A stretch of 64,000 bases of DNA, taken from contig NZ_VORZ01000001.1 in NCBI RefSeq assembly GCF_007997305.1, positions 558,001-622,000 on the forward strand, given 5' to 3'. A program made the translations under genes and the position numbers. How positions within the stretch are numbered: the stretch's first letter is position 1; each line of letters begins with the position of its first letter. Under the pieces are notes generated by a model. It saw only the letters and a program-made list of their open reading frames with translations, had not been told where the DNA came from and did no database searches. The DNA is from Psychrobacter frigidicola. Lineage in GTDB: Bacteria; Pseudomonadota; Gammaproteobacteria; Pseudomonadales; Moraxellaceae. Of the stretch, positions 29,126 to 56,062 are shown one piece after another.

Positions 29126-30472
29126 ATGCAAAGTAACCAGTATCATTATTTTAAAACATCACACCATAATCGTGTTATAGGTGCATTGGCGATCAGTAGC
29201 CTATTAGTGATAATCGGTGGCTGCGACAATACCATAAGAAATAATGGAACTGATGCTGTTACAGACATGATTACTCATAATCAGACAGCTATTGATAACC
29301 AAGCGCTTTCAACTGAGGTAGTGAATACTGTCGCAACATCCGAGGGTAATGCTGAAGTCGTCACTGCCAACAATCAATTCGCCATTGAGATGTATCAGCA
29401 GATAAATGGGCAGCCGCAGCAAGCAGAAAAAAACGTATTTTTCTCGCCGTATAGCTTGTCTACGGCGATGGCCATGCTATACGCCGCAGCGGAAGGGGAA
29501 ACGAAAGCACAAATTCAGAAAACCTTTAATTATCCGTCAATGGATATACTCAACCCCAATAGCACCGCGCTTTATAATCAATTTAATAAACCCAATCCCG
29601 ACTACAAACTTGCCACCGTCAATGACTTATGGATGCAACAAGGGCTAACCCTCAATAAGTCGTACGCAGATACAGTGAAACATTATTACAGCGGCCAAGT
29701 GACCGCTCTTGATTTTGAAGGCAGTCCTGATCCCGCGCGTCAGACTATGAATAAAAAAATTGCTGAGAAAACCAATCAGTTGATTCCTGAATTACTACCC
29801 AAGGGTAGCATTCAATCTGATACTGCCGTGGTACTAACCAACGCCGTCTATTTTAAGGGGGATTGGACCCTGCCTTTTACGGCTGCAAAAACCAGTGCCC
29901 AGCCTTTTTATAATGCTATAGGCAGAGCCTCTACCGTCCAGATAATGCAGCAACAGTCTTATTTTGACTATTATGAGGACAAACAGGTACAGATCGTACA
30001 ATTGCCTTACAAGGGTGACAACTTATCCATGCTCGTGGTATTACCCAAATTCAACGACAAGCTTGCTATGCAGCAGTTAGCCAAGCGTTTAAGTGCGACT
30101 AAAATTGAACAATGGAGTGTAGGCTTAGTAAGGCAAGACGTGAACCTTCATCTGCCAAAATTTAAGTTAGATGCGCGTTATCAGATGAAAACATTGCTCG
30201 CTGATATGGGTATGCCAAAAGCGTTTCAGAATGGGGCTGAATTTAACTTATTTTCTGATGGCCCACCGATAAAGCTCGATGAGGTTTATCATCAAGCAGT
30301 AGTCACCGTCGATGAAAAAGGGACGGAAGCGGCAGCAGCGACGGCTGCTGTGGGTATGTATACTGGTATGTCTTATCCTGTGCAATTTAAAGCCGATCAT
30401 CCATTTATGTTTATCATAAAAGAAAATAAAACCGATGCGATATTGTTTTTGGGGCAAGTGAATAAACCTTAG
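29126..30472 (+). CDS. Serpin-family protease inhibitor lipoprotein
   Basis: The 448-residue protein has an N-terminal hydrophobic segment ending LLVIIGGC, a lipobox, then a ~45-residue linker and a full serpin domain: NVFFSPYSLSTAMAMLYAAA, TAVVLTNAVYFKGDWTLPF, LSMLVVLPK, and the C-terminal HPFMFIIKENKTDAILFLGQ. The reactive-centre hinge reads DEKGTEAAAATAAVGMY, the small-residue hinge of inhibitory serpins. Aligned without gaps to antitrypsin, P1 falls on the Thr of MYTGMS, though a neighbouring Tyr or Met may be the true P1. As a lipoprotein it would guard the envelope against serine proteases. GTGAG precedes the ATG. Confidence 0.92.
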   Translation: MQSNQYHYFKTSHHNRVIGALAISSLLVIIGGCDNTIRNNGTDAVTDMITHNQTAIDNQALSTEVVNTVATSEGNAEVVTANNQFAIEMYQQINGQPQQAEKNVFFSPYSLSTAMAMLYAAAEGETKAQIQKTFNYPSMDILNPNSTALYNQFNKPNPDYKLATVNDLWMQQGLTLNKSYADTVKHYYSGQVTALDFEGSPDPARQTMNKKIAEKTNQLIPELLPKGSIQSDTAVVLTNAVYFKGDWTLPFTAAKTSAQPFYNAIGRASTVQIMQQQSYFDYYEDKQVQIVQLPYKGDNLSMLVVLPKFNDKLAMQQLAKRLSATKIEQWSVGLVRQDVNLHLPKFKLDARYQMKTLLADMGMPKAFQNGAEFNLFSDGPPIKLDEVYHQAVVTVDEKGTEAAAATAAVGMYTGMSYPVQFKADHPFMFIIKENKTDAILFLGQVNKP

Positions 30473-31371: not shown

Positions 31372-32298
31372 TTACTGTAAGTAACCTTTTATAGGAACAA
31401 TATCAGGTGGAATCTCACTTTCTCCTAAGGCTTCTAGTAGGTTAATTTCGATAGTGCGCGATATCGTCGTCAGTGGCAAATGGTTGGCAGCCACACCAAA
31501 AGGATCCGTTATCTCTTCACTGAGCGCATCGAGACCGAAAAAAGTGTAGGCAATGACGCCGCAGACTAAAGGGGTGACCCAGCCTAAAGAATTTGCCAAG
31601 CCAAAAGGCAACATAAAGCAATACAGATAAGTCGTGCGATGCACCAATAGGATGTAAGCAAATGGCAGGGGTGTACTATGAATGCGCTCACAGGCAGCCA
31701 AGACCACTGTCATAGATGTCAGACGTTCATCCATATTTTGTATCATAAGATCCGAGGTTAGCTGCTGGCGGCGACTATAGCCGAGCTGTTTGCCCAGCAG
31801 TCGCATGAGATACTCGGGTAGGTTTCGCGCTTGGCGCATGCTGTCGTGATATTCAGGCTCTACAAAACGGTCAACGTCTTCCCACGGCGACGTACCCCGA
31901 AGTCGATGACGCAGCGCATGAGTAAAAGCAATGTTAAGGTGAATCATACGTTGCTGGGTCTGCCGTCCGGTTTCTGTTTCCTCATCTATAAATGAGAGCA
32001 CTTGACGCGTTAAGCTACGCGAATCAAATACCAACTGACCCCACAAGCACCGACCCTCCCACCAGCGCTGATAGCTGGCATTGTTACGAAAACCTAAAAA
32101 CAGAGACAACGCGATGCCCAGCAAGGTAAATGGCGCGGTACTATAAGAGGTAAAATAGCTTGGAATCCAGTGCTGAACCGCTGATATTAAGGCACTAAGC
32201 AGGGTAATGAGTAAAACTTGGGGATAAATGTGTGGAATTACAGAGCCGCGCAGGGTAAAAAGGATTTTGAATGCATTTGGTGTCTGCCGGATTATCAT
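31372..32298 (-). CDS. Bestrophin-family channel protein
   Basis: The 308-residue protein carries the bestrophin core: FTLLGIALSLFLGFRNNASY then QRWWEGRCLWGQLVFDSRSL (residues ~58-95), the family's most conserved stretch, and FGLDALSEEITDPFG with the acidic cluster near the C-terminus. Bacterial bestrophins form pentameric ion channels in the inner membrane; ion selectivity varies. AGGAAG precedes the ATG. It is a single gene between the serpin group and the 33-40 kb catabolic operon, with no sign of linkage to either. Confidence 0.9.
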   Translation of the reverse strand: MIIRQTPNAFKILFTLRGSVIPHIYPQVLLITLLSALISAVQHWIPSYFTSYSTAPFTLLGIALSLFLGFRNNASYQRWWEGRCLWGQLVFDSRSLTRQVLSFIDEETETGRQTQQRMIHLNIAFTHALRHRLRGTSPWEDVDRFVEPEYHDSMRQARNLPEYLMRLLGKQLGYSRRQQLTSDLMIQNMDERLTSMTVVLAACERIHSTPLPFAYILLVHRTTYLYCFMLPFGLANSLGWVTPLVCGVIAYTFFGLDALSEEITDPFGVAANHLPLTTISRTIEINLLEALGESEIPPDIVPIKGYLQ

Positions 32299-32868: not shown

Positions 32869-33594
32869 CTACACGCCACCTGCCCCTTTACTTGACGCTT
32901 CGCTATTTTCGACCAGTATCGCTGCAGCACTTTTCTTAAGTGTTGCCCACTGCCCATCATCAATATAAATACCTTCTTTCCAAGCGCGTTTATGCGTTGC
33001 AAACAGCTCGTCCGTTGACACTTTACGGTCAAAGTGTTCGATTTCTTGTTCAATATCAAAATTCGATGTCGCAAGCTCAATAACCATATCATTGGTATTG
33101 TAATTGTCCTGTGCTTCATTAAAATAATAGATATCAGGATAGACAAAACCTTGATTCAAGGTAAATAAAGTATGCTTCGGTGCTGTACCATTATCCCATT
33201 TAGCCAGACAAGCGATACCTTTTGCAGCCAGATTTACCAGCTCACTATAGGCTAACCAGCGGTTATGACAGTTGTGTAAATAGATTTTAAAATGCTCACG
33301 ATTGCCCATTTTTTCAAGCGCATAATCCATCACTACTGGTAGGTGACAGACTAAGCTACTTCCATGTAAATCTAAGCTGATTTCACCCTCGCCTTGAGAG
33401 ACAATATCAATAGGCATATCACGCTCAGACAGAATAAAAGGACTGGCATTGTTAAAGTGTAGGATACCGTTGAGGCCAGCCATCTGTAGCTCTGCCACCA
33501 TAGAGGCAATCAAATCTGCTTCACCTACTTCACGCTGCATGCCTAAAAAGGCTTTGTTTACCGTCGTGACGATTTCATTATGCGATACGATCAT
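32869..33594 (-). CDS. DUF3726-like protein, last gene of the putative betaine catabolic operon
   Basis: The 241-residue soluble protein begins MIVSHNEIVTTVNKAFLGMQ and contains EADLIASMVAELQMAGLNGI, which I associate with DUF3726, a family without known function. No signal peptide, membrane segment or catalytic motif is evident. AAGGAGCG precedes the ATG at 33594. It lies 58 bp behind the 570-residue gene and closes a six-gene run on the minus strand with BCCT, M19-like, ALDH and RidA-like genes. Its role must relate to the same substrate, by context only. Confidence 0.65.
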   Translation of the reverse strand: MIVSHNEIVTTVNKAFLGMQREVGEADLIASMVAELQMAGLNGILHFNNASPFILSERDMPIDIVSQGEGEISLDLHGSSLVCHLPVVMDYALEKMGNREHFKIYLHNCHNRWLAYSELVNLAAKGIACLAKWDNGTAPKHTLFTLNQGFVYPDIYYFNEAQDNYNTNDMVIELATSNFDIEQEIEHFDRKVSTDELFATHKRAWKEGIYIDDGQWATLKKSAAAILVENSEASSKGAGGV

Positions 33595-33652
33595 GTCTCA
33601 ACGCTCCTTGTTGTACGAATAAATATGTCAGTAACTGGCTCGTTTTCGATTA

Positions 33653-35365
33653 CTAGTCTAAGACTGGCAATAAGGGAAATAACCACTCATCGCTATGTAC
33701 TTCATCAAATAACGGCGCACCTTGGAACAAGGTCACACGCACCCAGCGGTCAGATCTTGGATCAAATTTGGTGGCGCCAAACATCGATAACTTACAGCGT
33801 AACAGATGCATAGGTAAGGCGGTTTTTTGCAGCACATTAATTTGAATATCACCCATCTTTTTATGGCCCATGGTCCAAACTCGTCGAGCAATTGAGCGGT
33901 ACTTTGGCTGCCCTAAAATGAACTCTGAAATAAGCTGCTGCGAATCGGCTTGCTGCAAGGCTAAATATAAAGCATTCGCTTGCCGGCCAATATCTAACAG
34001 AAACTCTTTATCGTCGCCATGTTCTTGACCGCGTATACCCATTCTTGGCTCTTCTTTATCTTCAGAGCGATACCAAAACCAGTAAACATTATCTTCTGCT
34101 CCAAAATCAATGTTGATTGCCCATTGATAACGATCCTCTAAGACGTCTATAAGCTCTTGCACGATTTTACCACTGGGTAGCGACATACTCTCATCTGCAT
34201 TGACTTGCTCGGCGAACCCATCAACGCGCTCAGGATAAAGCTCCATCATGCAAGAGATAATGACCTCTTGGCTCTCAAAACTAAGATGGTCATTGCGCTG
34301 TAAAAATTCAGCCCAAGTGCTACAGACTGCAAGTTCAGTTGTGAGATTATTCTGCAACTTTGTCAGCTCATCAACGACGATACTATTAAGTAGGATTTGT
34401 GGCTCATTAATAGTAACCACTTCAGAGAAATGCTGGATGGCGCGATTCATTAAACTTGAGAATTTTTGTATTTTGTTATGGTTAGCTTCAGGCTCGATAT
34501 CACAGACCAACACGGCTTGTAATGCGCCTTCACGGGTACTTAACCATTGATCGACGACACAAGGATGGTTAATTAAATAAGGGGCCATTCCAAGACCGGT
34601 GGCATTACCAATACCTAAATAACGCTTGATCTCTGTATGTAAGCTAACTGCTTTATCGCCACCTTTTTGCTTAGCCAAATAGTCCACCAAATCAAGGCTG
34701 AATTCACGCAGTAGATAGACCGCACACATCTGCGCGCGAAAAGACTGATTAAAATCTTCGCTATGATCTAACGGTTTAAAGTCAAAAATACCAAACTTGC
34801 CATTGCCATAGACGGCAGTAGTACGCAGGATATAACCGACTTGTGCCAGTACATCAAGGTCAGGCTGCTGCCCCTCAGCAAGCGAGCTAACGATATGATC
34901 GAAGACCCGCACGCTTTTATTTGCCCGTGCCAACACCATAACCATATTAGAATTGCGCCCTGCTTCTTGTAGCGGCACATTTGCTTTTAGGTTTGCCAAT
35001 AACTCATCGCCTATTTCGCCATAAACCAAAGCAAACGTCACATCCCACTTTTGCGCAATCACGCGATCGTTACGTTCTTCATCGGCAATTTGGTTGCAGA
35101 ATACGACTAAGTGATAAACGTGCTCAGGCGTTTGCAAGCGGTAAATCACTTGCCCGTAGCCATCCGTATCTAAATCCCATAGATGCTTGCTTAACGTCCA
35201 ATTTTCTTTATCAATTTTACGTAGCAATGAGCGCACAAAGCTGATACGGGTTTGGTGCATCGCGCCCAGCCTTTCAGAGTGCATCACTACATCAGGTGTA
35301 CGGAAGCTGACGGCGTCTAAATTTCCATTAGCTAGCTTTTCATTGTTTGGCAAAGTATGTTCCAT
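33653..35365 (-). CDS. Unknown 570-residue cytoplasmic protein of the catabolic operon
   Basis: No domain was recognised. The protein starts MEHTLPNNEKLANGNLDAVS, has no signal peptide or membrane helix, and is mixed alpha/beta by composition. Conserved-looking stretches include HYEDATR-free central parts such as YGNGKFGIFDF and FWYRSEDKEEPRMGIRGQEH. AAGGTGA precedes the ATG at 35365. It sits between the BCCT transporter and the DUF3726 gene with short spacers (103 and 58 bp), so it is almost certainly co-expressed. It may be an enzyme of the pathway or an accessory protein; it is the largest unexplained gene in the window. Confidence 0.75.
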   Translation of the reverse strand: MEHTLPNNEKLANGNLDAVSFRTPDVVMHSERLGAMHQTRISFVRSLLRKIDKENWTLSKHLWDLDTDGYGQVIYRLQTPEHVYHLVVFCNQIADEERNDRVIAQKWDVTFALVYGEIGDELLANLKANVPLQEAGRNSNMVMVLARANKSVRVFDHIVSSLAEGQQPDLDVLAQVGYILRTTAVYGNGKFGIFDFKPLDHSEDFNQSFRAQMCAVYLLREFSLDLVDYLAKQKGGDKAVSLHTEIKRYLGIGNATGLGMAPYLINHPCVVDQWLSTREGALQAVLVCDIEPEANHNKIQKFSSLMNRAIQHFSEVVTINEPQILLNSIVVDELTKLQNNLTTELAVCSTWAEFLQRNDHLSFESQEVIISCMMELYPERVDGFAEQVNADESMSLPSGKIVQELIDVLEDRYQWAINIDFGAEDNVYWFWYRSEDKEEPRMGIRGQEHGDDKEFLLDIGRQANALYLALQQADSQQLISEFILGQPKYRSIARRVWTMGHKKMGDIQINVLQKTALPMHLLRCKLSMFGATKFDPRSDRWVRVTLFQGAPLFDEVHSDEWLFPLLPVLD

Positions 35366-35468
35366 ATAGCTATCACCTTAAATAATGGGTTAAGCCAATA
35401 ATTTACTTGATAATTCTAATGACTGGTGTCCATTAGCAAATAAATTACCCGCTATATCAATGACGACC

Positions 35469-37130
35469 TTAATCTATTTCTTTGGTAATGTTTTCTTTAG
35501 CAAGCTTTTCTTCAGCGATTCTATGATCAGTTTCTACTCGGTTAGGACGATAAAGATCTTGATCGTGCGCCATTTGCTGCGCAATTTTTGGTCCATTCCA
35601 TAACGATGGTAGAAGAATAAAGGACACAGGCACAGCGGTAATCACGATAAAGGATTGCAAGGCAGTCACGCCACCTTCACCAAGCGAGATTAAAACAATA
35701 GCCGTTACCCCCATCATGATGCCCCAAAAGGTACGGATGATAGCGTTGGGCTCGCGCTCGCCACTGATAACGACACTGATGGTATAGGTCATCGAGTCAC
35801 CAGTAGTGACAATAAAGACCATGGTTAAAATGATAAATAGTAACGAGGTAATTAAAGGAAACGGTAACTGTTGAGTGATTGCTAACAACGCACCAGGAAG
35901 ATTAAACCCTTCAAAAGCAGTGCTGACACTTCCTGGATTTGCAATCTCAAAAGCCAGACCTGTACCACCAACGACCGTGAACCAAAAGCAGGTAACCAAT
36001 GGAGCAATAATACAAACCGTCGTAATTAATTGGCGAATGGTACGACCGCGCGAGATACGCGCAATAAAGATCGCCATCATCGGGCCATAACCCAAGAACC
36101 AACCCCAAAAGAACACCGTCCAGCCACCAAGCCAGCCTTCATCACCGCGAAAAGTTGCCATCGGAATAAAGTTATGGACCATCGTGCCAACGCCTTGAAT
36201 ATAGCCATTCACGATAAACTTAGTTGGCCCAAACATGATAATAAAGGCCATTAGTGCGACAGCCAGTATGACGTTAAAACGACTAAGTATTTGCATACCT
36301 CGGGCAAGTCCACTGATTGCCGAGAGGGTATAAAGGGCAATAGCAAATACAATAATAATCAGCTGGGTGGTAAAAGTATCAGGGACACCGAATAAAGTAT
36401 TTAGTGCGTAACTGGTTTGTAAACCTAAAAAGCCAATGGGACCAATCGTACCGGCAGCAACGGCGACAATACAGCAGGCATCGATAATCGCTCCAGTATG
36501 ACCGGTAAGTACGCGGTCACCAAAGACAGGATATAAGAGCGTACGCGGCTTAAGCGGCAACCCTTTATCATAATGCAAATGCATAACCACAATAGCGGTT
36601 AAGCTACCAACAATTGACCATGCTAAGAAACCCCAATGCATAAACGATTGGGATAGCGCATTAAAAGCGCGTTGTTGGATATCAGCTGTTTCAGCATATA
36701 CAGGCGGTGCACTAACGAAATGAGCGATAGGTTCAGCGGCTGCCCAAAAGACCCCGCCACCCGCAAGCAATGTACAAAATAAAATGGCCATCCATTTAAA
36801 ATTATCCATTTCAGGCTTTGGTAGGTTGCCTAAGATGACCCGTCCAGTGCGGCCAGCGCCAACGGCTAAGGCAATCACAAACGTCGCCAGCAGCAGAAGT
36901 TGCCAAAAAGGACCAAAAACATTGGCCGACCAAGTAAAGCCTAAATCAATTATTGTTGATAAGCGCTCTTCTGCAAAGATCGCCATTAAAACAAAGACAA
37001 TAATAAAACCGCCACTGTACCAAAAAGCTGGATTTTTAAGTCCCAAAGTATCCGTATCCGCTGTTTTATCAGTGCTAACTGAGCGTCCTTGCCCACTATC
37101 TTTACTGTCAAATCCCTTTAAATCAGCCAT
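35469..37130 (-). CDS. BCCT-family betaine/carnitine/choline transporter
   Basis: The 553-residue protein has about 12 membrane helices and the BCCT signature region WTVFFWGWFLGYGPMMAIFI (residues ~325-344) plus the aromatic-rich FWAAAEPIAHFVSAPP motif (residues ~126-141). BCCT proteins take up quaternary ammonium or sulfonium compounds with Na+ or H+. The long regulatory C-terminal domain of osmoregulated members is absent (the tail after the last helix is about 45 residues). This and the enzyme neighbours favour nutrient uptake over osmoprotection. GGAGCC precedes the ATG. Confidence 0.9.
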   Translation of the reverse strand: MADLKGFDSKDSGQGRSVSTDKTADTDTLGLKNPAFWYSGGFIIVFVLMAIFAEERLSTIIDLGFTWSANVFGPFWQLLLLATFVIALAVGAGRTGRVILGNLPKPEMDNFKWMAILFCTLLAGGGVFWAAAEPIAHFVSAPPVYAETADIQQRAFNALSQSFMHWGFLAWSIVGSLTAIVVMHLHYDKGLPLKPRTLLYPVFGDRVLTGHTGAIIDACCIVAVAAGTIGPIGFLGLQTSYALNTLFGVPDTFTTQLIIIVFAIALYTLSAISGLARGMQILSRFNVILAVALMAFIIMFGPTKFIVNGYIQGVGTMVHNFIPMATFRGDEGWLGGWTVFFWGWFLGYGPMMAIFIARISRGRTIRQLITTVCIIAPLVTCFWFTVVGGTGLAFEIANPGSVSTAFEGFNLPGALLAITQQLPFPLITSLLFIILTMVFIVTTGDSMTYTISVVISGEREPNAIIRTFWGIMMGVTAIVLISLGEGGVTALQSFIVITAVPVSFILLPSLWNGPKIAQQMAHDQDLYRPNRVETDHRIAEEKLAKENITKEID

Positions 37131-37279
37131 GGTGTGGCTCCATATGATAATGTTGCGTCATTTAAATTAGAGTGACCTCTAAACAGCTTTATCTTGTCTT
37201 ACTTCGCCTTTCCATACTTTATTTTCGATTATTCAAATAATATTTTTCCTTACAAAATAGTGAATTCTGTATGAGACTT

Positions 37280-38269
37280 TTAAGCGATAGGTTTTATGCC
37301 ACTCTCAAGAAAATCAAACCAATTCTGTCCAATGATTTTTCCAGCATCTTTATCATTGAAGCCATGTTTTAATAAACCGTTATAAATATTTTCCATACCA
37401 TCCTTGCCCGCAAACCACGGCAAAGTATCTGGCCAACCTGAGTTATTAGCATTGCCTTCACCATAGTCCATTTCCTTTGACCAACGACCGTTACGCATCC
37501 ACTCGAGTACTGCTTGTGGTTGGTTAAGGCACAAATCACTACCAATCGCTAAATGCTCAACGCCATATTTATCAGCACAATCAGCAATCATGGTACAAAA
37601 ATCATTTAACGTACAATCACTGCCATTCGGTAAATGAAACGGATATAAGCTGAAGCCTAATAAGCCACCTGCCTTGGTTAAAGCACTAATAACGGTGTCA
37701 GATTTATTACGCAACGCTTCATGCGCGGTAGTCGGATTCGCATGACTGATACATATCGGACGCTTGGATATCTCAATAGCCTCAAGCGTTGATTGCTCAG
37801 CGCTGTGTGACATATCAATAATCATCCCGACTCGATTCATCTCGACTATGGCTTGCTGACCGAAACGCGTAATGCCACTATCATTCTGTTCATAACAACC
37901 GGTTGCCAGTAAACTTTGGTTGTTATAAGTCAGCTGCATAATCAGCAATCCCAAGCGACGCATGACACTAATCAAACCAATCTCATCATCTATCGGTGAA
38001 CAGTTTTGTGCGCCAAAAAAGATACCCACTTTGCCCTGTTGTTTCGCTGTCTCAATATCAGTCACTGAATACACCGGTAAGATCAGGTCTGAGTTTTGTT
38101 CAAAGCGGCTATTCCACTCGGCAAAGCGAGTCATCGTCTGCCGTGCATCCTCGTGGTATACCAAAGTGGCATGTACCGCATTGATACCACTGGCTTGCAG
38201 CATCTTGAAATAATTACGATCCCAATGGCTATACTGTAATCCGTCAATGACGATATGGTCTTGGTACAT
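37280..38269 (-). CDS. M19 dipeptidase-like protein with a non-canonical metal site
   Basis: The 329-residue protein has the M19 (renal dipeptidase) fold signature IIDMSHSAEQSTLEAIEISK, ICISHANP and AIGSDLCL, keeping the equivalents of His198, His219 and Asp288. But the N-terminal DGHxD metal motif reads DGLQY, the bridging Glu position reads FFGAQN (Gln), and the equivalent of His152 appears as Asn in TYNNQS. At most one metal site remains. It is therefore unlikely to be an ordinary dipeptidase. Similar altered M19 proteins occur, as far as I recall, in Pseudomonas dimethylglycine/choline catabolic clusters. AAAGGAA precedes the ATG. Confidence 0.82.
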   Translation of the reverse strand: MYQDHIVIDGLQYSHWDRNYFKMLQASGINAVHATLVYHEDARQTMTRFAEWNSRFEQNSDLILPVYSVTDIETAKQQGKVGIFFGAQNCSPIDDEIGLISVMRRLGLLIMQLTYNNQSLLATGCYEQNDSGITRFGQQAIVEMNRVGMIIDMSHSAEQSTLEAIEISKRPICISHANPTTAHEALRNKSDTVISALTKAGGLLGFSLYPFHLPNGSDCTLNDFCTMIADCADKYGVEHLAIGSDLCLNQPQAVLEWMRNGRWSKEMDYGEGNANNSGWPDTLPWFAGKDGMENIYNGLLKHGFNDKDAGKIIGQNWFDFLESGIKPIA

Positions 38270-38367
38270 TTCAAATTCCTTTTATACTTTGTGTAAGTAG
38301 CCGCTAGGTGCACTTTTAAACTGCTGCGCCAATATTGATTGCGGCTAGCATCCTTTTTAATCAGCTT

Positions 38368-39831
38368 CTAGTACGCTTTCTGATAAGCTGTTTTAACGAT
38401 GGTGTAAAACTCTTTGGCATACGTTCCTTGTTCGCGTGGACCAAAGCTTGACTCTTTACGACCACCGAATGGCACATGATAATCCGTACCCGCCGTTGCT
38501 AGATTGACCATGACGCAGCCTGCTTGTACTTGTTCTTTAAACATGGCGCTATTACGCAAGCTTTGCGTAATGATGCCACCAGTCAAACCAAAACGCGTGT
38601 CATTGGTCATGGCAATCGCTTCTTCTAAATTCTTCACACGCATCACACAAGCCATTGGCGCGAATACTTCTTCTTGGTTAACGTCCCAGCTATTATCAGT
38701 CTCGGTGAACAAAGTTGGCGACATATAGTAACCCTCATGCGGCATGTCTAATCGTTCGCCACCAAAGGCTAAATTGGCACCTAATTGCTTGGCTTTTTCG
38801 ATCCAATCCATGTTAGACGTAAGCTGTTTGTCGTCAACAATCGGACCCATAAAAATACCGTCATCAAGCGCGTGACCGACTTTTAGAGTTTTCATTTTTG
38901 CCACTACACCGTCGACGAAAGCGTCATGAATACCGTCCATGACGATCAGGCGTGAAGAGGCAGTACATTTTTGTCCTGAACCACCAAATGCACCAGCAAC
39001 GGCAGCGTCAATAGCAACTTGTAAATCAGCATCATCGGCGATGACCAACGCATTTTTACTACCCATCTCTAACTGGCAACGGACAAAGTTTGGTGCGGTT
39101 GCCGCAGCAACTTTGCGACCTGTTGCGACTGAACCAGTAAAGCTGACAGCATCGATATCTTTTGAATTGATTAAAGCATCACCGACTGATGAGCCACCAC
39201 CCAATACTAAGTTAAACGTACCTTCTGGCAACCCTTGACGGTGAATGATTTCAGCTAAAGCAACCGCACTAGCAGGTGTTAGATTCGCAGGCTTCCAGAT
39301 GACACTGTTGCCATAGGCTAACGCTGGTGCAATTTTCCACACGGCGGTTGCGGTTGGAAAGTTCCAAGGTGAAATGATAGCGACGACACCGACCGCTTCA
39401 CGAGTGACCTCAACTTTTACCCCAGGGCGTACGGAGTCGGCAAGGTCACCCATCTGACGTAACACTTCTGCGGCATAATAATGAAAGAATTGACCAGCAC
39501 GATAAATCTCACCGCGACCTTCAGCAAAAGGCTTGCCTTCTTCACGTGATAGCAAGGTACCTAATTCATCACAACGGGCAATCATCTCATCGCCAATCGC
39601 TTGCAGAATTGATTGCTTTTTTTCCATGGGCGTCTTTTCCCATTTTGGCTGTGCAAGGCGTGCAGCGGCAATGGCATCTTGTACTTGTTCGCTACTGGCT
39701 TGAGCAAACTCGCCAATCGTTTCGCTGATATCTGATGGATTAATATTGGCAATGGTATTACTACCCGCTTGCCATTCACCATTGATATAAAGTGATTTTT
39801 TTGGGTCTTGTTTGAGGGCTTGATTTGACAT
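38368..39831 (-). CDS. NAD(P)-dependent aldehyde dehydrogenase (semialdehyde type)
   Basis: The 487-residue ALDH has all catalytic elements: ISPWNFPTATAVWKIAPALA with the active-site Asn, the catalytic Glu in CQLEMGSKNALV, the Gly-rich FTGSVATGR cofactor motif, and the nucleophilic Cys in GGSGQKCTASSR. It is most like the alpha-ketoglutarate semialdehyde / succinate semialdehyde dehydrogenase group, so a carboxylated aldehyde is the likely substrate (inference). AAGGACA precedes the ATG at 39831. It is the second gene of the operon, 75 bp after the RidA-like gene. Confidence 0.92.
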   Translation of the reverse strand: MSNQALKQDPKKSLYINGEWQAGSNTIANINPSDISETIGEFAQASSEQVQDAIAAARLAQPKWEKTPMEKKQSILQAIGDEMIARCDELGTLLSREEGKPFAEGRGEIYRAGQFFHYYAAEVLRQMGDLADSVRPGVKVEVTREAVGVVAIISPWNFPTATAVWKIAPALAYGNSVIWKPANLTPASAVALAEIIHRQGLPEGTFNLVLGGGSSVGDALINSKDIDAVSFTGSVATGRKVAAATAPNFVRCQLEMGSKNALVIADDADLQVAIDAAVAGAFGGSGQKCTASSRLIVMDGIHDAFVDGVVAKMKTLKVGHALDDGIFMGPIVDDKQLTSNMDWIEKAKQLGANLAFGGERLDMPHEGYYMSPTLFTETDNSWDVNQEEVFAPMACVMRVKNLEEAIAMTNDTRFGLTGGIITQSLRNSAMFKEQVQAGCVMVNLATAGTDYHVPFGGRKESSFGPREQGTYAKEFYTIVKTAYQKAY

Positions 39832-39906
39832 TATATTGTCCTTAGTTTATTAAAAATTTGAATGATGAAAGGTTTTGAATACTTAGGTAAATAGAGTCGA
39901 AAAGGT

Positions 39907-40296
39907 CTATGGTACAGCCGCATATACGACTAGCTCAACCAGCATTTCTTCTCTTGCCAATCCTGATATGACTAGCGCAGCACGGTTTGGGTAAGGTGTA
40001 GTAAAGTATTCAGCATAAACTTGATTAACCGTTTTTAGATACTCGCGATCTGTAACATAGATGAGTACTTGTAATACTGAATCCATACCTACATTGGCAC
40101 ATTCTAGGGTGTGCTTCAGGTTATCAAGCGTTTGCCGAGTTTGGGCTTCGATACCACCCGCAACTACTTCACCATTTTCATCAATAGGAATTTGCGCAGT
40201 ATATAAAGTTCCATTGTTTGTGACTGCCCATTCAAGTGGCGACTTAGAGGCATAAAGTGAGGTTTTAACCGCTTGTTTGGTTGAGTGAGTGGTCAT
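39907..40296 (-). CDS. RidA/YjgF-family protein, first gene of the catabolic operon
   Basis: The 129-residue protein has the RidA fold motifs NGTLYTAQIPIDENGEVVAG, ARQ-like QTRQTLDNLKHTLECAN and the C-terminal PYPNRAALVI with the Arg that in RidA salt-bridges the substrate carboxylate. RidA proteins hydrolyse reactive enamines/imines to ketones and ammonia. As the first gene of a catabolic operon it may deaminate an imine intermediate of the pathway. AAGGG precedes the ATG. The divergent LysR gene starts 177 bp away. Confidence 0.88.
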   Translation of the reverse strand: MTTHSTKQAVKTSLYASKSPLEWAVTNNGTLYTAQIPIDENGEVVAGGIEAQTRQTLDNLKHTLECANVGMDSVLQVLIYVTDREYLKTVNQVYAEYFTTPYPNRAALVISGLAREEMLVELVVYAAVP

Positions 40297-40397
40297 ATCG
40301 TCATATCCCTTGATTGAATGGTTTCACAATTTATTTCTTCGTTAGTGATTATCCTACGCAATAAACAATGATAAATCTAACTAATTAAATATCAAAA

Positions 40398-40418
40398 ATG
40401 ATAGATTTAATCTATCAT
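40398..40418. promoter_or_regulatory. Perfect 21-bp palindrome, probable LysR-type operator
   Basis: ATGATAGATT-T-AATCTATCAT has perfect 10-bp arms around one base and contains the T-N11-A pattern of LysR recognition boxes. It lies midway between the divergent lysR-like and ridA-like genes. A related half site, ATGATAAATCT, occurs 30 bp to the left (about 40368), as expected for a second, weaker activation box on the operon side. Confidence 0.75.
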
Positions 40419-40472
40419 CAATAGTTAATATATATTTAATCAATAACAACAAGCACAAGGGCGCTAACCACT

Positions 40473-41378
40473 ATGAAACTACAGCAGTTACGACATTTTT
40501 TATTTGTGGTAGAAGAAGGTGGGTTTCGTGCAGCAGCCAACCGCGCTAACAGGTCACAGGCAGCATTGTCCGCATCGATAAAGGAGCTTGAGAAGACACT
40601 AAATCAGCGTTTATTTGAAGTTGGCAATAAGGCAACATTGACCCCGTTTGGAGAAGGCTGTGTGCCCAAAATACAGCAGTTTCTCAGTGTCTATCAAGGA
40701 TTAGAAGACGATTTACAGGCTATAGCATCAGGAGAAAAGGGGAAAATAAGGATTGCCAGTGTGCCATCGCTAGTGACTAAGCTATTGCCTAGCGTATTAG
40801 TCGCTTATTCAAAAAAATATCCAGATATTGAAATCGTATTGATAGATGATAATGCGGTTGGCGTAGCCAATCGATTACTTACGGGTGAAGTAGATTTGGC
40901 ATTAGGAAACTGTACGAGTATTGATGAAAAAGAAATTGATTTTACCCTGCTTATATCAGATCCCATCGGTGTGGTTTGTCTTAAAAGTAATGAGCTGAAC
41001 CATTTGCAAGAAAGTGATGAACTAACTCAGTCGCACGGGCTAACATGGCAGCAACTTATGGCGGAACCATTTATCTATAACGGTACCTGTAGGTTACTTG
41101 AGAATACACCTGCAGAAGCGCTCAATCGCAAGGCTCGCTATACGGTAGAAAATATTACCTCACTGTTCTCCTTATTAAGAAACGATCTTGGCATTACCAC
41201 ACTGCCGAAACTTGCATTTCCTTCTAATGAGCCTGAACTGGTCTGGATAAACTTACTCGATCCTTCCTTAAACAGACAAATCGGCATCTTTAAGCTGGCT
41301 AATAAGTCCATATCTCCACCGGCTCAAGCTTTTTATGAGCTATGTGTTGCCTATGTTCAGGAGAACTACTTGTTGTAA
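40473..41378 (+). CDS. LysR-type transcriptional regulator of the divergent operon
   Basis: The 301-residue protein has an N-terminal winged helix (MKLQQLRHFLFVVEEGGFRA then AAALSASIKELEKTL-like RSQAALSASIKELEKTLNQR) and a substrate-binding domain (KIRIASVPSLVTKLLPSVLV, GEVDLALG). AAGGGCG precedes the ATG. Its divergent placement from the RidA-ALDH-M19-BCCT operon and the palindrome in the gap strongly suggest that it controls those genes in response to the substrate or an intermediate. A terminator hairpin overlaps its stop codon. Confidence 0.9.
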   Translation: MKLQQLRHFLFVVEEGGFRAAANRANRSQAALSASIKELEKTLNQRLFEVGNKATLTPFGEGCVPKIQQFLSVYQGLEDDLQAIASGEKGKIRIASVPSLVTKLLPSVLVAYSKKYPDIEIVLIDDNAVGVANRLLTGEVDLALGNCTSIDEKEIDFTLLISDPIGVVCLKSNELNHLQESDELTQSHGLTWQQLMAEPFIYNGTCRLLENTPAEALNRKARYTVENITSLFSLLRNDLGITTLPKLAFPSNEPELVWINLLDPSLNRQIGIFKLANKSISPPAQAFYELCVAYVQENYLL

Positions 41379-41534: not shown

Positions 41535-42686
41535 CTTTGCTCGATATCAATAATACCTTACATTGGTGCAGAGGAAATTGCCGAGGTCGTTGATTCTCTT
41601 CGCTCTGGTTGGATTACAACCGGTCCTAAAGTAAAGCGCTTTGAGGAGGAATTTGCTGAGTACATTGAGTCTGACGTTCAAGCGCTAGCTATGAACTCAG
41701 CAACTTCGGGCTTGCACTTAGGATTAGAGGCTGTAGGGGTTAAGGCAGGTGACGAAGTGATTATTCCTAGCTATACCTTTACAGCTACTGCTGAGGTAGT
41801 ACGCTACTTAGGTGCTACCCCTGTTTTCGTAGATAGTGATCCAGTTACCTTAAATATAGATCCCAAGGCGATTGAAGCTGCCATAACAATTAAAACCAAA
41901 GCAATTATTCCGGTACATTTTGCTGGTTTGGCGTGTGATATGGATGCCATTATTGCTATGGCTAGAAAATATAAGTTGAAAGTAGTCGAAGATGCTGCGC
42001 ACGCTTTTCCAACACGTTATAAAGGAAATTTAGTAGGCACACTCGATACAGACGTTACCATATATAGCTTTTATGCTAATAAAACCATGGCTACCGCTGA
42101 AGGTGGGATGCTGGTTTCTAGAGATCCAAATATTATTGAACGCTGCAAAATTATGCGTTTGCATGGTATTAGTCGGGATGCTTTTGATCGGTACTCATCT
42201 AAGAGGCCCTCTTGGTATTACGAAATAGTAGAGCCTGGTTTTAAGTATAATATGCCAGATATTTGTGCATCAATAGGTATTCATCAATTAAAAAAGATAA
42301 ATATTTTTCATAAAAAACGTACAGAAATGGCTCAGGTCTATGATGAGGCATTTAAGTCATTACCGTTAACGTTACCAGCTAGATCCTTAGGTATTGTTGA
42401 GCACGCTTGGCATTTGTATGCGATTCGCTTGAATGATGAGGTGACTCTCTCTAGAGACGATTTTATTATGAAAATGTCCGATTATAATATCGGTTGCTCT
42501 GTGCATTTTATTCCTCTACATCTGCAGCCTGTGTGGCGGGACGGTTATGCCTTAACTCCCGAGCAGTTCCCACATGCAGAAGCGGCATACCAACGTATCG
42601 TCTCAATTCCTTTGTACACGAAGATGACAATAGACGATCAGCTTCGTGTTATCAGTGCTGTTAACAAGACTTTAGATCATGCTTAA
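41535..42686 (+). CDS. DegT/DnrJ/EryC1-family sugar aminotransferase lacking a standard start codon
   Basis: The open frame runs from a TAA at 41532. Its first residues ([37 protein letters not shown]) are the conserved N-terminus of PLP-dependent sugar aminotransferases. There is no ATG, GTG or TTG before them; the first ATG is 41691 ([14 protein letters not shown]), which would cut off ~50 conserved residues. The PLP-binding Lys is in [14 protein letters not shown]. These enzymes make amino-sugar nucleotides for glycans. The sugar transferase gene overlaps by 8 bp. The gene looks 5'-truncated by a recombination event, or it uses a rare start such as ATA/ATT. Confidence 0.78.
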
Positions 42687-43272
42687 ACGTAGTTTCGATT
42701 TTATTGCTTCTGCTATAGGTTTATCATGTCTTTTGCCTGTTTTTTTGATTATAGCATTTTGGGTTAAGCTGGACTCAAAGGGGCCTATTTTCTTTAGGCA
42801 AGTACGAATAGGACGAAATGGCGTTCCTTTTATTATCCATAAATTTAGAACAATGCATACCAATGCAGAGTCTGAGGGCCGCCTGACGATTGGTTCTGAT
42901 TCACGTATAACTCATTCCGGGCATTTCTTACGAAGAACAAAGCTAGATGAGTTACCACAGCTTATCGATGTTTTATTAGGAGATATGAGCTTAGTTGGCC
43001 CTAGGCCTGAGGTATCTGAGTTTATGGAACTATATCGTGAAGACGTGCGAAGTAATATTTTATCAGTAAAACCTGGAATAACCGATAGAGCATCTATTGA
43101 AATGGTTGATGAAAACACTCTTCTTAGTGGGTACGCAGATCCAAAACAAGCGTATATAGAAATTATTATGCCTATAAAAGCAAAAATTTCTTGCGAATAT
43201 GTGGATAAACAAAATTTTATTGATGACCTAAAAATTATTTTTCTTACTTTGTGGCATATTGCATTTAGATAA
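42679..43272 (+). CDS. Bacterial sugar transferase (polyprenyl-phosphate glycosyl-1-phosphate transferase)
   Basis: The 197-residue protein is a PglC/WbaP-core type initiating transferase. It has an N-terminal reentrant helix ([20 protein letters not shown]), [53 protein letters not shown] and [11 protein letters not shown], with the catalytic Asp-Glu pair in LDELPQ. It transfers a sugar-1-phosphate to undecaprenyl phosphate, the first step of capsule, O-antigen or protein glycan assembly. It overlaps the aminotransferase gene by 8 bp. No other glycan genes are near, so the pair seems detached from a larger locus. Confidence 0.9.
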
Positions 43273-43386: not shown

Positions 43387-44562
43387 CTAGTATTTAACAT
43401 TCCAGACAATATCTCTATACCTACTTGGGTGAGTATCTCCTTCGGTGTTAAATATCATGACGACTGACTCTTTATTCAACCCTAATTCTTTATGACTGTC
43501 TTTACTAGATACATCGCTACAAAGTTGGTAGAGCAAACCTAGAGTAACTGCGCCCGACTCACCGCTGATAACCCGGGTATCTCCTAATAGAGGATTGCCT
43601 AATACTCGCATACCGAGTGCCGATACATTGTCATCAACTCGAGCAAAGTAATTGCTGCAGTCTTTTAATACGGGCCAAGTGACTGGGTTTGGTTCGCCGC
43701 AAGCAAGTCCTGCCATAATGGTATTTAGCTTGCCACTGACATTGACCATATCACCTTGCGCACTTGTACCTGAGCGGAAAATACAGTCAGCGGTGGCAGG
43801 CTCGGCAATGATGGTTTGAAAGCTGCCAGCACCAAGCTTGTCTACCAAATATCCCAATACACCGCCAGCCATCGATCCGACGCCTGCTTGCAACATCACA
43901 TGAGTTGGCATGTCTGCACCCATAGCAGCAGCTTGTTCAATCGCTTCATCGGGCATGGTCATGTAGCCTTGAGAAATCCAAGTCGGTATTTCTTCATAGC
44001 CCTCCCAAGCGGTATCCTGCACTAGTATCCAACCGTTTTCTTCTGCAGTCTTATTCGCTAGGCGCACGGTATCATCGTAATTGACATCTGTTATAATACA
44101 TTCTGCATCTAGTCTACGAATGCGCTCAGCACTCGCTAATGGTGATCCCTGAGGCATATAGACAACGGCTTTTTGCCCCATTTTCTGCGCAGCCCATGCA
44201 ATTCCAGTGCCATGATTACCAGCAGTTGCCGTGGTAAACACCAATGGTTTATCTAATTTAGTAGCGACTGTTTTTAAATCTATTTCTGCTATATCAATGT
44301 TTAAGTATTGCGCCAGTAACCGCCCTAACGCATAGGAGCCGCCCAGTGCCTTATAAGCGTTAAGTCCAAAGCGCTTGGATTCATCTTTGACCAAAATTGA
44401 TCTTACACTGAGTTTTTCTGCCAGCAGTGGTAACGAGATCAAAGGTGTCGGTTGATAATCTTCAAGTTGATAGTGAAATTTACGGACTTGCTTAGCAAAT
44501 TCTACATTAAAAATAGATGATTTTTGACCAATGTAGAAGTTATTTTCAGCAACGTTAAACAT
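43387..44562 (-). CDS. dpaL: 2,3-Diaminopropionate ammonia-lyase
   Basis: The 391-residue PLP enzyme resembles E. coli YgeX/DpaL: TPLISLPLLAEKLSVRSILV, DESKRFGLNAYKALGGSYAL with the PLP Lys, TATAGNHGTGIAWAAQ with the phosphate/substrate motif, GVGSMAGGVLGYL, and FNTEGDTHPSRYR at the end. It converts 2,3-diaminopropionate to pyruvate and two ammonia. Family members can also act on serine/threonine-like substrates. It is a single gene convergent with the sugar transferase gene. AAGAGA precedes the ATG. Confidence 0.88.
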   Translation of the reverse strand: MFNVAENNFYIGQKSSIFNVEFAKQVRKFHYQLEDYQPTPLISLPLLAEKLSVRSILVKDESKRFGLNAYKALGGSYALGRLLAQYLNIDIAEIDLKTVATKLDKPLVFTTATAGNHGTGIAWAAQKMGQKAVVYMPQGSPLASAERIRRLDAECIITDVNYDDTVRLANKTAEENGWILVQDTAWEGYEEIPTWISQGYMTMPDEAIEQAAAMGADMPTHVMLQAGVGSMAGGVLGYLVDKLGAGSFQTIIAEPATADCIFRSGTSAQGDMVNVSGKLNTIMAGLACGEPNPVTWPVLKDCSNYFARVDDNVSALGMRVLGNPLLGDTRVISGESGAVTLGLLYQLCSDVSSKDSHKELGLNKESVVMIFNTEGDTHPSRYRDIVWNVKY

Positions 44563-48778: not shown

Positions 48779-50470
48779 TTACACGACGGCCACTTCTCGG
48801 AACATACCTGCATTCATATGATAAAGAAGATGACAATGCCAAGCCCATCTGCCCTGCTCGCCGGTGACATCGAAGCTAATTTTTTGTGCCGACTGCACCA
48901 TAATAGTATGTTTTCGAGCCTGAAAATCACCGTTAGGCGCGCGCAAATCACTCCACATCCCATGTAAATGCATCGGATGATTCATCATCGTGTCATTGAC
49001 TAAGGTAATACGTACGCGCTCGTTAGGTTTAATATTAACTGGTTTAGCCTCTCTAAACGGCATGCCATCAAAGCCCCAAATATAGCGATCCATATTACCG
49101 GTTAAATGGATCTCAAGCTCGCGGCTCGGCGCTCGCTGCTCGGCAATAACGCCGTCCTCAATCGTGTGCAGTTGACTATAATTCAGCACGTCTCTAGTCT
49201 TGCTGACCTTGCGTAGGTTAATACCCGGATCATCAAGGTTTATGCGCGGATTATCGACACGCATAGCGGTTTTATAATCGTATTCAGTCTTGGCATGAGT
49301 AGCTTTATAGCCCTCGCCATCCATAGCGCCCATCATATCCCCCATCGTCATCCATTCGATCTCATCCATGGCAGGGGTTGCGGCGCGGGCAGCCTCTTTG
49401 GTCGCAAGAGTAGCAGTAACGTATCCTGTCCGGTCTATATTCTGTGCAAAAAAGGTATAAGCCTCTTTAGTCGGGGTGACAATAACATCATAAATTTCGG
49501 CAACGCCAATACGGAAGTCGTCAATTGTAACGGGTTCTATATCGTTACCATCAGCAGCTACTACCGTCATTTTGAGACCTGGAATTCTTATATCAAAAAT
49601 AGTTTGCGCGGAACCATTAATAATACGTAACTTAACCGGTTGACCCGCTTTTACCAGTTGAGTCCAATTGGCCGCTGTGGTTTTGCCATTGATAAGGTAA
49701 GTAAAAGTTTTTTCACCAGACAAGTCACTAAAATCCGTCGGCATCATGCGCATCTGATTCCACATCTTGCGCTCATCAAAGGCGGTCTTGATATCGGTTT
49801 TGGCGATATCTGCTAACAATCTTTTAAAGTCCGGTTGATGATAATTATCAAAATCTGAGCGCTGCTTAAGCATTTTGAGTAAGGTATTGGGATTACGATG
49901 AGTCCAATCGCCGAGGAAAATCACATGATCCTCAGCAATAGGATGACGCTCGCGACCTTTGGGCTCAATAACAATAGCTCCACGTAGACCAAGTTGCTCT
50001 TGAAACCCAGTGTGCGAGTGATACCAATAAGTACCCGATTGTTTGAGCGGAAAGCGATAAGTAAAGGTACTATTTGCAGGAATACCATCAAAACTAATAC
50101 CAGGTACGCCGTCCATCTCAAACGGTAACAAGAACCCATGCCAATGTATTGAGGTCGACTCATCCATCTGATTATGGACGCGTATGACGATATTATCGCC
50201 TTCGACCATATGCAAAGTTGGTCCAGGCAGTGAGTCGTTAATCAGCATCGCCATCGTCTGTTTACCATTGACAATAACCGACTGCTTAGTGATATATAAA
50301 TCAAATTCTGGCCCCGTTAGTACAGGAACCTTATGGATATTCTTATCGCTATTAATAACAGCACGCTGTTGATTTGCGCTATTAGCAAGAGTCGGTAGAA
50401 TGGAGGCACCCATCAACGCGGATGACCCTGCCAAAAAACGCCGACGATTTAATTTATTTTGTTTATTCAT
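48779..50470 (-). CDS. copA: CopA, periplasmic multicopper oxidase
   Basis: The 563-residue protein has a twin-arginine signal (NRRRFLAGSSALMGASILPT). The four multicopper oxidase copper motifs are present: SIHWHGFLLP, YWYHSHTGFQ, NHPMHLHGMW and WHCHLLYHMNAGMF. It is the PcoA/CopA class that oxidises Cu(I) in the periplasm. The Met-rich segment of Pseudomonas CopA is short here (around MGDMMGAMDGEGY). It is followed directly by copB. The symbol copA here means the oxidase, not the ATPase. Confidence 0.94.
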   Translation of the reverse strand: MNKQNKLNRRRFLAGSSALMGASILPTLANSANQQRAVINSDKNIHKVPVLTGPEFDLYITKQSVIVNGKQTMAMLINDSLPGPTLHMVEGDNIVIRVHNQMDESTSIHWHGFLLPFEMDGVPGISFDGIPANSTFTYRFPLKQSGTYWYHSHTGFQEQLGLRGAIVIEPKGRERHPIAEDHVIFLGDWTHRNPNTLLKMLKQRSDFDNYHQPDFKRLLADIAKTDIKTAFDERKMWNQMRMMPTDFSDLSGEKTFTYLINGKTTAANWTQLVKAGQPVKLRIINGSAQTIFDIRIPGLKMTVVAADGNDIEPVTIDDFRIGVAEIYDVIVTPTKEAYTFFAQNIDRTGYVTATLATKEAARAATPAMDEIEWMTMGDMMGAMDGEGYKATHAKTEYDYKTAMRVDNPRINLDDPGINLRKVSKTRDVLNYSQLHTIEDGVIAEQRAPSRELEIHLTGNMDRYIWGFDGMPFREAKPVNIKPNERVRITLVNDTMMNHPMHLHGMWSDLRAPNGDFQARKHTIMVQSAQKISFDVTGEQGRWAWHCHLLYHMNAGMFREVAVV

Positions 50471-50627
50471 AAGATAGCCTAGCTCTTAGGACATAAAACT
50501 TGTTTAATATTTTAATCGAATATATAAACAGCTATATAACGTAGTCTTATTAAAAAACAGTCAGTAAACTGAGAAAGTTTTACCAGCCATAGAAAATTCT
50601 ACAACTAATGATTCTATTCAACACTGA

Positions 50628-51227: not shown

Positions 51228-51396
51228 AAAATTATCCTTAAACGTCTATTAGTGTATTTAGACCATGCTTGATATTTACAACAGCTTTGATATTTAATAA
51301 TAGGTACTGTAATAGCCTCACATAGATGTCTTAATCAACCATTTCTTAACATCGACTATAATCCAAAAAGGCTGTAATTTAGTAGAGCTAAGTTTT

Positions 51397-51711: not shown

Positions 51712-51882
51712 AATTAATTCCTCTTGGCTTTATTAGAAGCTATTGAAGCTCGATACTGTTAATGAATTGATACTATTAATTATAATTTATTAGGGTTAGA
51801 AACCATTAAGTCTATAAGCCTAAAGGCTATCCAAGAAGATTACATTATATAATATTGTTTCTGACTAACAGATGACGCGTAG

Positions 51883-51898
51883 ATGACAATTTTGTCAT
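51883..51898. promoter_or_regulatory. CopR/CusR-type box 1
   Basis: ATGACAATTTTGTCAT is a perfect inverted repeat equal to the core of the CusR box (ATGACAA-NN-TTGTCAT). GATGACGC lies 12 bp before it in the same arrangement as at box 2. It is placed to activate the Met-rich gene and the copA-copB genes on the minus strand. Confidence 0.85.
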
Positions 51899-51900
51899 GT

Positions 51901-54795: not shown

Positions 54796-54903
54796 AAAAT
54801 CACTCCTTGAAGATGGTAAATAGACGTTTAGACGCCGCGCAGTTGGCAACTAGTACTCGAATACTGTTTTTCTACTGTTAAATGCTGATGTTTATTAGTT
54901 TTA

Positions 54904-56061: not shown

Positions 56062-56062
56062 C

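Follow-up and report, generated by a model that had tools for sequence, protein, structure and literature searches.

The DNA analysed here, a 64,000-nucleotide stretch of the genome of Psychrobacter frigidicola (positions 558,001 to 622,000 of contig NZ_VORZ01000001.1, assembly GCF_007997305.1; hereafter the window), carries a cluster of six minus-strand genes that are separated by 58–149 bases and lie opposite a divergent, plus-strand gene for a LysR-type regulator. The six encode a RidA-family protein, an aldehyde dehydrogenase (ALDH), a protein of the peptidase M19 family (M19), a BCCT transporter, a 570-residue protein here called P570, and a DUF3726 protein. All seven open reading frames (ORFs) were confirmed, and their Pfam matches agree with the families named in an earlier note made from the letters alone, which had described a catabolic operon for a betaine-type compound with two proteins without known function at its heart. 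No oxygenase was found by a Pfam scan of the operon proteins, as that note had also stated. The features of the locus are as follows.

32869–33594, minus strand: DUF3726 protein, 241 residues (PF12525, 3.5e-16)
33653–35365, minus strand: P570, 570 residues (no family in Pfam or NCBIfam)
35469–37130, minus strand: BCCT transporter, 553 residues (PF02028, 2.5e-150)
37280–38269, minus strand: M19-like amidohydrolase, 329 residues (PF01244, Peptidase_M19, 1.9e-69)
38368–39831, minus strand: aldehyde dehydrogenase, 487 residues (PF00171, Aldedh, 5.8e-155)
39907–40296, minus strand: RidA-family enamine/imine hydrolase, 129 residues (PF01042, Ribonuc_L-PSP, 4e-23)
40398–40418, no strand assigned: inverted repeat in the LysR–RidA gap, a candidate LysR box
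40473–41378, plus strand: LysR-type regulator, 301 residues (PF00126, HTH_1, 1.3e-16; PF03466, LysR_substrate, 2.8e-28)

The genomic setting of P570 was followed with a profile built from P570 alignment A1; scanned against a genome collection, it returned at least 575 relatives, the best 80 of which were taken as named loci. Within 9.5 kb of P570 at these 80 loci lie genes for M19 (77), DUF3726 (69), ALDH (68), BCCT (64) and LysR (59), counts that depend on the identity thresholds of the script, include loci on short contigs and miss the DUF3726 genes of Bacillales; where BCCT is absent, a glycine-betaine-type ABC transporter may take its place. The core block is old and is co-conserved across several phyla, beyond chance. 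The earlier note's idea of a co-conserved operon is thus borne out, and the scattering of its genes in relatives, which that note had named as contrary evidence, is not what the neighbourhoods display. The named loci include Psychrobacter, Vibrio, Aliivibrio, Photobacterium, Shewanella, Halomonas, Marinobacter, Pseudomonas and Halieaceae as well as SAR11, other alphaproteobacterial single cells, Bacillales and Anaerolineae. Inside the genus Psychrobacter the distribution of P570 is patchy (the window genome and 14 of 35 other genomes of the genus; 1 of 21 genomes of the same order), and a phylum-wide sample holds it in 30 of 398 genomes, the window genome counted.

Annotated plasmids also carry P570, namely those of Ruegeria sp. 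TM1040, Phaeobacter, Aminobacter, Mesorhizobium, Roseateles and the haloarchaeon Natrinema; no match to P570 was found in viral contigs, and none to the operon DNA in a near-mode search of the plasmid collection. The organism name of the Roseateles sp. XES5 plasmid (NZ_CP084753.1; locus L068) may be wrong: the entry carries the flag UNVERIFIED_ORG, and on the P570 tree it falls beside Aminobacter (L074). On pSymB of Sinorhizobium meliloti (L072, 9944–13390) a distant P570 (about 28% identity) stands beside an unknown protein, a dipeptidase, an ABC transporter and an aminotransferase, and is perhaps part of a sister pathway for another compound.

The genes that accompany the core were surveyed in 109 loci (the 80 named loci, 9 plasmid loci and 20 others; near-duplicates are included and some genomes occur twice). 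ORF clustering of 61 of these neighbourhoods placed RidA (25), Ldh (13), an ABC ATPase (10) and the alpha subunit of N-methylglutamate dehydrogenase (Mgd) or sarcosine oxidase (8) next after the core, followed by further DUF3726 groups in 9 and 7 neighbourhoods. No further widely recurring partner was found in the 61: the unlabelled families, which lack one-by-one annotation, and all other families each occur in 6 or fewer, and Rieske proteins, the one oxygenase type probed, in 3.

Across all 109 loci RidA occurs in 61, a reductase of the Ldh_2 family in 17 and a sarcosine-oxidase-like subunit in 11, and RidA is never found together with Ldh or Mgd (0 of 109). The Ldh threshold is low (33% identity), so that some of the 17, for example L122, are possibly unrelated neighbours, and the RidA threshold passes over the other Rid subfamily of Bacillales, a PF14588 protein seen in L126 and L142 and not seen in L143. 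When the 80 named loci are counted by taxon label (37 labels), Rid accounts for 18 and Ldh or Mgd for 10; the single label with both is 'Gammaproteobacteria', a pool of different metagenome-assembled genomes. On a P570 tree of 52 of the 109 loci (32 Rid and 20 Ldh/Mgd; the other 29 Rid loci, the Ldh locus L070 and all 27 loci with neither were omitted), parsimony requires 5 changes of the Rid/reductive label, against a mean of 16.1 and a minimum of 11 in 500 shuffles. Single branches illustrate the exchange: in Marinomonas (L119) Ldh occupies the RidA slot of its tree neighbours L128, L141 and L147, and Halieaceae-type loci with soxB-soxD-soxA or soxB-soxA behind DUF3726 (directly in L118 and L122, after BCCT in L133) share a branch of support 1.000 with RidA-type Halomonas and Marinobacter loci. 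RidA and Ldh/Mgd therefore replace each other as the terminal module. The Arg in the YPNRAALV motif of the window's RidA, which matches the PF01042 profile, aligns with YPARS of 1xrg and corresponds to the conserved Rid-family active-site Arg; the Ldh of TM1040 (L069, 395104–403693 of NC_008043.1) finds its best solved match in 1wtj, a delta1-piperideine-2-carboxylate reductase (E 4.8e-53), which is a ketimine reductase.

The exchange of terminal genes could also mean that clusters of the RidA type, as in Psychrobacter, Vibrio, Halomonas and Pseudomonas, have a different, related substrate, so that the relatives' pathway, argued below to be one for homarine, would not be that of the window. 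The differing terminal genes would suit this explanation, as would the P570 of Ldh/Mgd-type alphaproteobacteria, which is only about 40% identical to that of the window. The terminal module changes at least 5 times on the P570 tree, however, twice inside otherwise RidA-type branches, and two outlets for one intermediate are therefore easier to accept than repeated changes of substrate; moreover, the altered aromatic residues of BCCT (see below) are the same in 75 of 78 aligned transporters. We regard a different substrate as quite improbable.

The identity of the compound is suggested by the reductive relatives. In alphaproteobacteria and Halieaceae the core adjoins mgd genes, which carry the annotation sarcosine oxidase, or an imine reductase of the Ldh_2 family, or both; mgd-like linkage was found in 11 of 109 loci (L061, L068–L070, L118, L122, L123, L133, L134, L137 and L155), the window's own locus not among them. 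In a tree of 29 alpha subunits, drawn from cluster-adjacent loci, gmaS and mgsABC loci and others, the Rhodobacterales alphas (L061, L069, L070) are sister, with support 1.000, to L186, L187 and L189, which adjoin gmaS-mgsABC, and to L205, which lies without gmaS or mgs. The Halieaceae-type alphas (L118, L122, L123, L133) form one clade, again with support 1.000, with the gmaS-mgsABC-adjacent L191–L193, and the sarcosine-oxidase-like alphas L198–L202, found without gmaS or mgs, make a separate group; a further gmaS-mgsABC-adjacent alpha, L194, sits on a long branch. By their place in this tree, the cluster-adjacent 'sarcosine oxidases' of these two lineages are Mgd; the cluster loci themselves hold no gmaS or mgs gene. 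The regulator beside mgd in TM1040 is 48–49% identical to the mgd-adjacent regulator in L186, L187 and L205; a passage of PMC13390433 places mgdABCD of Ruegeria pomeroyi next to the regulator tmaR. The SAR11 contig L137 and two alphaproteobacterial single cells placed with it by the P570 tree, L134 and L155, all have M19, P570 and mgd-like genes; in two of the three, mgd is present only as fragments where the stretch ends.

According to a passage of PMC13390433, homarine catabolism involves Mgd, and the statement of the earlier note that no known betaine pathway fits has to be given up, since the relatives' core adjoins Mgd. Homarine was already among the compounds that the same note proposed for growth and RNA-seq experiments. 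We consider it probable that the cluster is an operon for uptake and degradation of homarine (N-methylpicolinate) by a recently reported pathway, in a hydrolytic version that releases methylamine. This reading is favoured because an N-methylglutamate product, a quaternary-amine transporter, an ALDH of the alpha-ketoglutaric-semialdehyde type and a 1wtj-type ketimine reductase fit a single class of compound, an N-methylated ring acid with an sp2 alpha carbon that gives a five-carbon dicarboxylate; homarine fits once C6 leaves as formate. In our own bookkeeping, homarine plus four waters equals N-methylglutamate, formate and 2 [H]. The support computed directly consists of the conserved core, the mgd linkage in relatives, the exchange of RidA for Ldh/Mgd, the Ldh_2 origin of DUF3726 and a window genome without an Ldh_2 protein or strong MgdC match; which compound is degraded, which bond is cleaved, in what order the steps run and what P570, DUF3726 and M19 each do are inferences.

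Another N-methylated cyclic betaine, such as proline betaine (stachydrine), degraded via N-methylproline and N-methylglutamate semialdehyde with ALDH yielding N-methylglutamate, would also account for BCCT or betaine ABC transport, a semialdehyde-type ALDH and the mgd link, and a Rieske oxygenase does lie near a few loci (L061, L067, L070, L123). Because no 2-imino or enamine intermediate arises on that route, it would need neither RidA nor an Ldh_2 ketimine reductase, yet one of the two is present at 78 of 109 loci. The scarcity of Rieske genes and of every unlabelled family in the 61 clustered neighbourhoods likewise speaks against it, and the one betaine link of Mgd met in print, in the passage cited above, is homarine. 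We regard an operon for such another betaine as quite improbable too. Two further schemes were set aside: 2-aminomuconate-type chemistry, with an ALDH and a RidA-like deaminase, leads to pyruvate and acetaldehyde and not to N-methylglutamate, and glycine-betaine demethylation is at odds with an operon that lacks GbcAB, DgcAB and sarcosine oxidase, the relatives' 'sarcosine oxidase' being Mgd in the two lineages resolved by the tree.

On the homarine reading, BCCT would import the substrate, which LysR would sense, and P570 with DUF3726 would open the N-methylpyridinium ring between C5 and C6. The product would be an N-formyl-N-methyl enamine with an aldehyde at C5, a derivative of alpha-ketoglutarate semialdehyde; this N-formyl intermediate is proposed by analogy to the trigonelline pathway. 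ALDH would then oxidize the C5 aldehyde and the M19-like protein would take off the N-formyl group, leaving 2-(methylamino)pent-2-enedioate, the enamine/imine of 2-oxoglutarate, which RidA would hydrolyze to 2-oxoglutarate and methylamine. Bacteria with the reductive module would instead have the Ldh_2 enzyme reduce this imine to N-methylglutamate, which Mgd would demethylate to glutamate.

The first of the two proteins that had been called functionally unassigned, P570, has no Pfam or NCBIfam match; Pfam searches with all 49 members of alignment A3 gave nothing consistent (4 or fewer members per family). A confident structure model (predicted local distance difference test, pLDDT, 88.1; predicted template-modelling score, pTM, 0.88) found no credible match among solved structures when searched whole, the best Foldseek E being 0.25. 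A VIA comparison gave Z 6.3 over 55 helical residues; the weak VIA matches (prenyl synthase, polymerase, JetABC, START domain and others, Z 6.3 or less) were dropped as helix pairs or scattered stretches. Against sequences of solved structures the P570 profile gave T-cell-receptor matches only (E 0.11 or worse). The lack of a structural match is not proof of a new fold. Alignments A1 and A3, the latter of 49 members from several phyla, contain dozens of invariant residues, among which Arg, Trp, Tyr and Gly are frequent, one His occurs and Cys is absent. Such a set would suit a ligand that is anionic, aromatic or cationic better than it would a metal.

The second protein, DUF3726, can be placed. 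Of its aligned members, 23 of 41 (the window's own not among them) match Ldh_2 at E≤1, with a best value of 5.3e-12, and its profile finds YiaK in the PDB at 3.5e-4; its structure model (pLDDT 91.4) matches 27 chains that are Ldh_2-type dehydrogenases by title at E≤0.001 in Foldseek (1.2e-8 to 2.6e-4). It shares the fold and an N-terminal sequence signal with the Ldh_2 family (DpkA, 1wtj; YiaK, 1s20; ureidoglycolate dehydrogenase, 4fju) but at 241 residues falls about 100 short of the approximately 330 of a full-length member, and its consensus reads GLxG where TM1040 Ldh has GVASHG, the SHG motif being the site of the Ldh_2 catalytic His. DUF3726 is therefore a shortened Ldh_2-fold protein of Ldh_2 origin without the catalytic His motif and, with some 100 residues and SHG missing, is probably no dehydrogenase on its own. 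No paper that uses the term DUF3726 was found. In Mesorhizobium sp. 131-2-1 (L075) P570 and DUF3726 are fused into one protein of 814 residues, and the two very likely work together, with P570 proposed as the ring-opening protein and DUF3726 as its probable partner subunit.

An accessory or regulatory role for this pair, with ring attack left to the M19-like protein or to an enzyme from another locus, is unlikely in our estimate but deserves more weight than the rivals above. It would accord with the absence of a cofactor motif in P570 and of the catalytic His motif in DUF3726, and with the greater constancy of M19 (77 of 80 loci against 69 of 80 for DUF3726); the dozens of invariant P570 residues across several phyla, the fusion in one genome and the failure of any other probed oxidoreductase, beyond those named, to recur in the 61 neighbourhoods argue for a direct role.

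The M19-like protein, a proposed N-deformylase, belongs to the sequence family of the M19 dipeptidases (DPEP1, 1itq; 3id7) and has its best solved match in the amidohydrolase 2i5g. The binuclear zinc ligands of M19 enzymes are HxD, a bridging Glu, His and His; the window protein has Leu11, Tyr13 and Gln88 at the His, Asp and Glu positions, so that 3 of 5 ligands are replaced relative to the dipeptidases. Among 100 aligned sequences Leu11 is kept in 98, Asp at position 13 in none and Gln88 in all, as are His155, His176, Arg187 and Asp245 (each 100 of 100). The earlier note's description of M19 as altered was right in this respect, and 2i5g has the same Leu and Gln substitutions. The ALDH comes closest to the NCBIfam models for alpha-ketoglutaric semialdehyde and 2,5-dioxovalerate dehydrogenases. 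BCCT resembles TmaT (8zw8), BetP and DddT in family and overall sequence, with the trimethylamine transporter 8zw8 as its best solved match, but its WTVFFWGWFLGYGP stretch has altered aromatics: it reads WGWFLGYGP, where Trp residues of the WAWWIAWSP type stand in 8zw8 and in the choline transporter 9vbn. Phe345 and Tyr348 each occur in 75 of 78 aligned BCCTs.

The outlet predicted for Psychrobacter follows from the window genome. No Ldh_2 family protein was found there at E≤0.001 (the control was positive in 4 of 14 genomes), and no MgdC-like alpha-subunit match was better than 2.4e-19. GmaS gave a single match, a 475-residue frame that looks like GlnA, and of two glutamate-synthase-domain matches the one among the matches listed is not of the MgsC type. 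Strong alpha matches were absent from 11 of 11 Psychrobacter genomes (best 2.5e-20) and from 5 of 5 genomes of a family that is Vibrio-like by P570 identity (f34), whereas all 19 genomes searched from a different class of this phylum gave alpha matches at E 0. The N-methylglutamate branch (an Ldh_2 enzyme and Mgd) is not seen in the window genome, which makes its route a version of the pathway and not the identical one; 2-oxoglutarate, methylamine and formate are therefore predicted as products. The simplest prediction is that Psychrobacter hydrolyzes the imine and loses methylamine.

Several observations weigh against the homarine reading. At the thresholds used, RidA, Ldh and Mgd are all missing from 27 of the 109 loci. 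Full-length sox/mgd alphas occur in 7 of 7 RidA-type Pseudomonas searched (L115, L117, L127, L135, L140, L146, L150) and in RidA-type Halomonas (L108, L121) and Neptunomonas (L128, L141), and alpha absence is therefore no rule for RidA types. In the alpha tree L195–L197 fall inside the alphaproteobacterial Mgd clade without gmaS or mgs in the fetched stretch, and the SAR11-type alphas L137, L203 and L204 (the last tagged 'other', yet on the contig of L155) stand on a branch of their own that allows no assignment. The ALDH lies under the cut-off for the best 25 of 46 NCBIfam models, including NF042993 (481.8 bits against 770 needed). M19 with 3 of 5 zinc ligands lost argues against an ordinary metal-dependent deformylase, and P570 has no recognizable cofactor site, although O2 or some other oxidant would be required for the ring cleavage proposed.

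The LysR–RidA gap contains, at 40398–40418, a perfect 10-base inverted repeat with a 1-base spacer (core ATAGATT-T-AATCTAT), directly upstream of a promoter-like site of the operon (first hexamer from 40395, minus strand), one of a class of sites that barely exceeds chance there (27 found, 22.3 expected). The core, searched with a motif drawn from the window itself, is kept at 14–15 of 15 bases in 11 of 12 Psychrobacter sequences, the window among them; in the remaining one (L047) the start of LysR has probably been called wrongly. No match outside Psychrobacter exceeds 13 of 15, and 200 shuffles gave at most 12 of 15. The repeat is a candidate LysR box.

Genes around the cluster were also noted. 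Downstream of DUF3726 lies a bestrophin-family gene (31372–32298, minus strand; PF25539), homologues of which are near the cluster also in L047 and Neptunomonas L128, and farther on a bacterial serpin gene (29126–30472, plus strand; PF00079, 6.2e-112). Adjoining LysR on the plus strand (41691–43272) are an ORF for a DegT-type aminotransferase, whose match starts at profile position 46 so that the N-terminal part may be missing, and then a sugar transferase gene; about 2 kb past LysR and outside the conserved cluster is a diaminopropionate ammonia-lyase gene (43387–44562, minus strand; TIGR03528 of NCBIfam, above cut-off). A copper-type region (48779–57529) encodes a multicopper oxidase, a P-type ATPase with four heavy-metal-binding (HMBD) stretches and a CusS-like sensor kinase, and at 58747–59497 several long ORFs overlap on both strands, one of which was tested and has no Pfam match.

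A bolder proposal, which we advance tentatively and hold to be somewhat short of probable, is that P570 and DUF3726 form a new two-component enzyme class with an unseen fold that would open an N-methylpyridinium ring without a recognized oxygenase, flavin or metal site, and that the nitrogen outlet has switched at least 5 times in evolution between hydrolysis by RidA, with loss of methylamine, and reduction by Ldh/Mgd, with nitrogen kept as glutamate. Homarine is an abundant marine nitrogen compound. It is described in a passage of PMC12817926 as a marine diatom osmolyte rapidly taken up by R. pomeroyi, for which a passage of PMC9723723 records no confirmed homarine transporter as of 2022. If the homarine reading is true, an exchangeable gene could serve to predict whether a bacterium frees methylamine from homarine or retains the nitrogen in glutamate. 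On the same condition, a RidA protein would act directly in catabolism, on an N-methyl imine, and P570, annotated as a hypothetical protein in plasmid records that name P570 alone, would represent a type of enzyme whose members number in the hundreds.

Two known systems bear comparison with the proposed route. The trigonelline (tgn) pathway of Acinetobacter baylyi proceeds by oxidative ring cleavage to an N-formyl aldehyde, aldehyde dehydrogenation and deformylation with release of methylamine, and its ring cleavage is carried out by a two-component flavin monooxygenase and reductase. The window route would resemble it in having an N-methylpyridinium carboxylate as substrate and the same order of steps, but the operon holds no flavin monooxygenase/reductase pair by Pfam, and of the unlabelled neighbour families of its relatives, which lack one-by-one annotation, none recurs in more than 6 of 61 loci. 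For a conserved homarine pathway, a passage of PMC13390433 cites Ferrer-Gonzalez et al. (2026, Nature Microbiology 11:1531). That study reportedly describes an operon homABCDER, N-methylglutamate as product and a distribution in SAR11 and Rhodobacterales; the name homABCDER did not occur in the papers listed by our literature search. As far as its reported features go, the cluster has in common with that pathway the Mgd link, LysR with about five structural genes, and presence in Rhodobacterales and SAR11, and differs in the window version by RidA and BCCT, by a genome without Ldh_2 enzyme or strong MgdC match, and by a predicted outlet to methylamine and 2-oxoglutarate. The pathway is thus most likely not categorically new; what would set it apart is the predicted variant outlet and an unexplained key enzyme.

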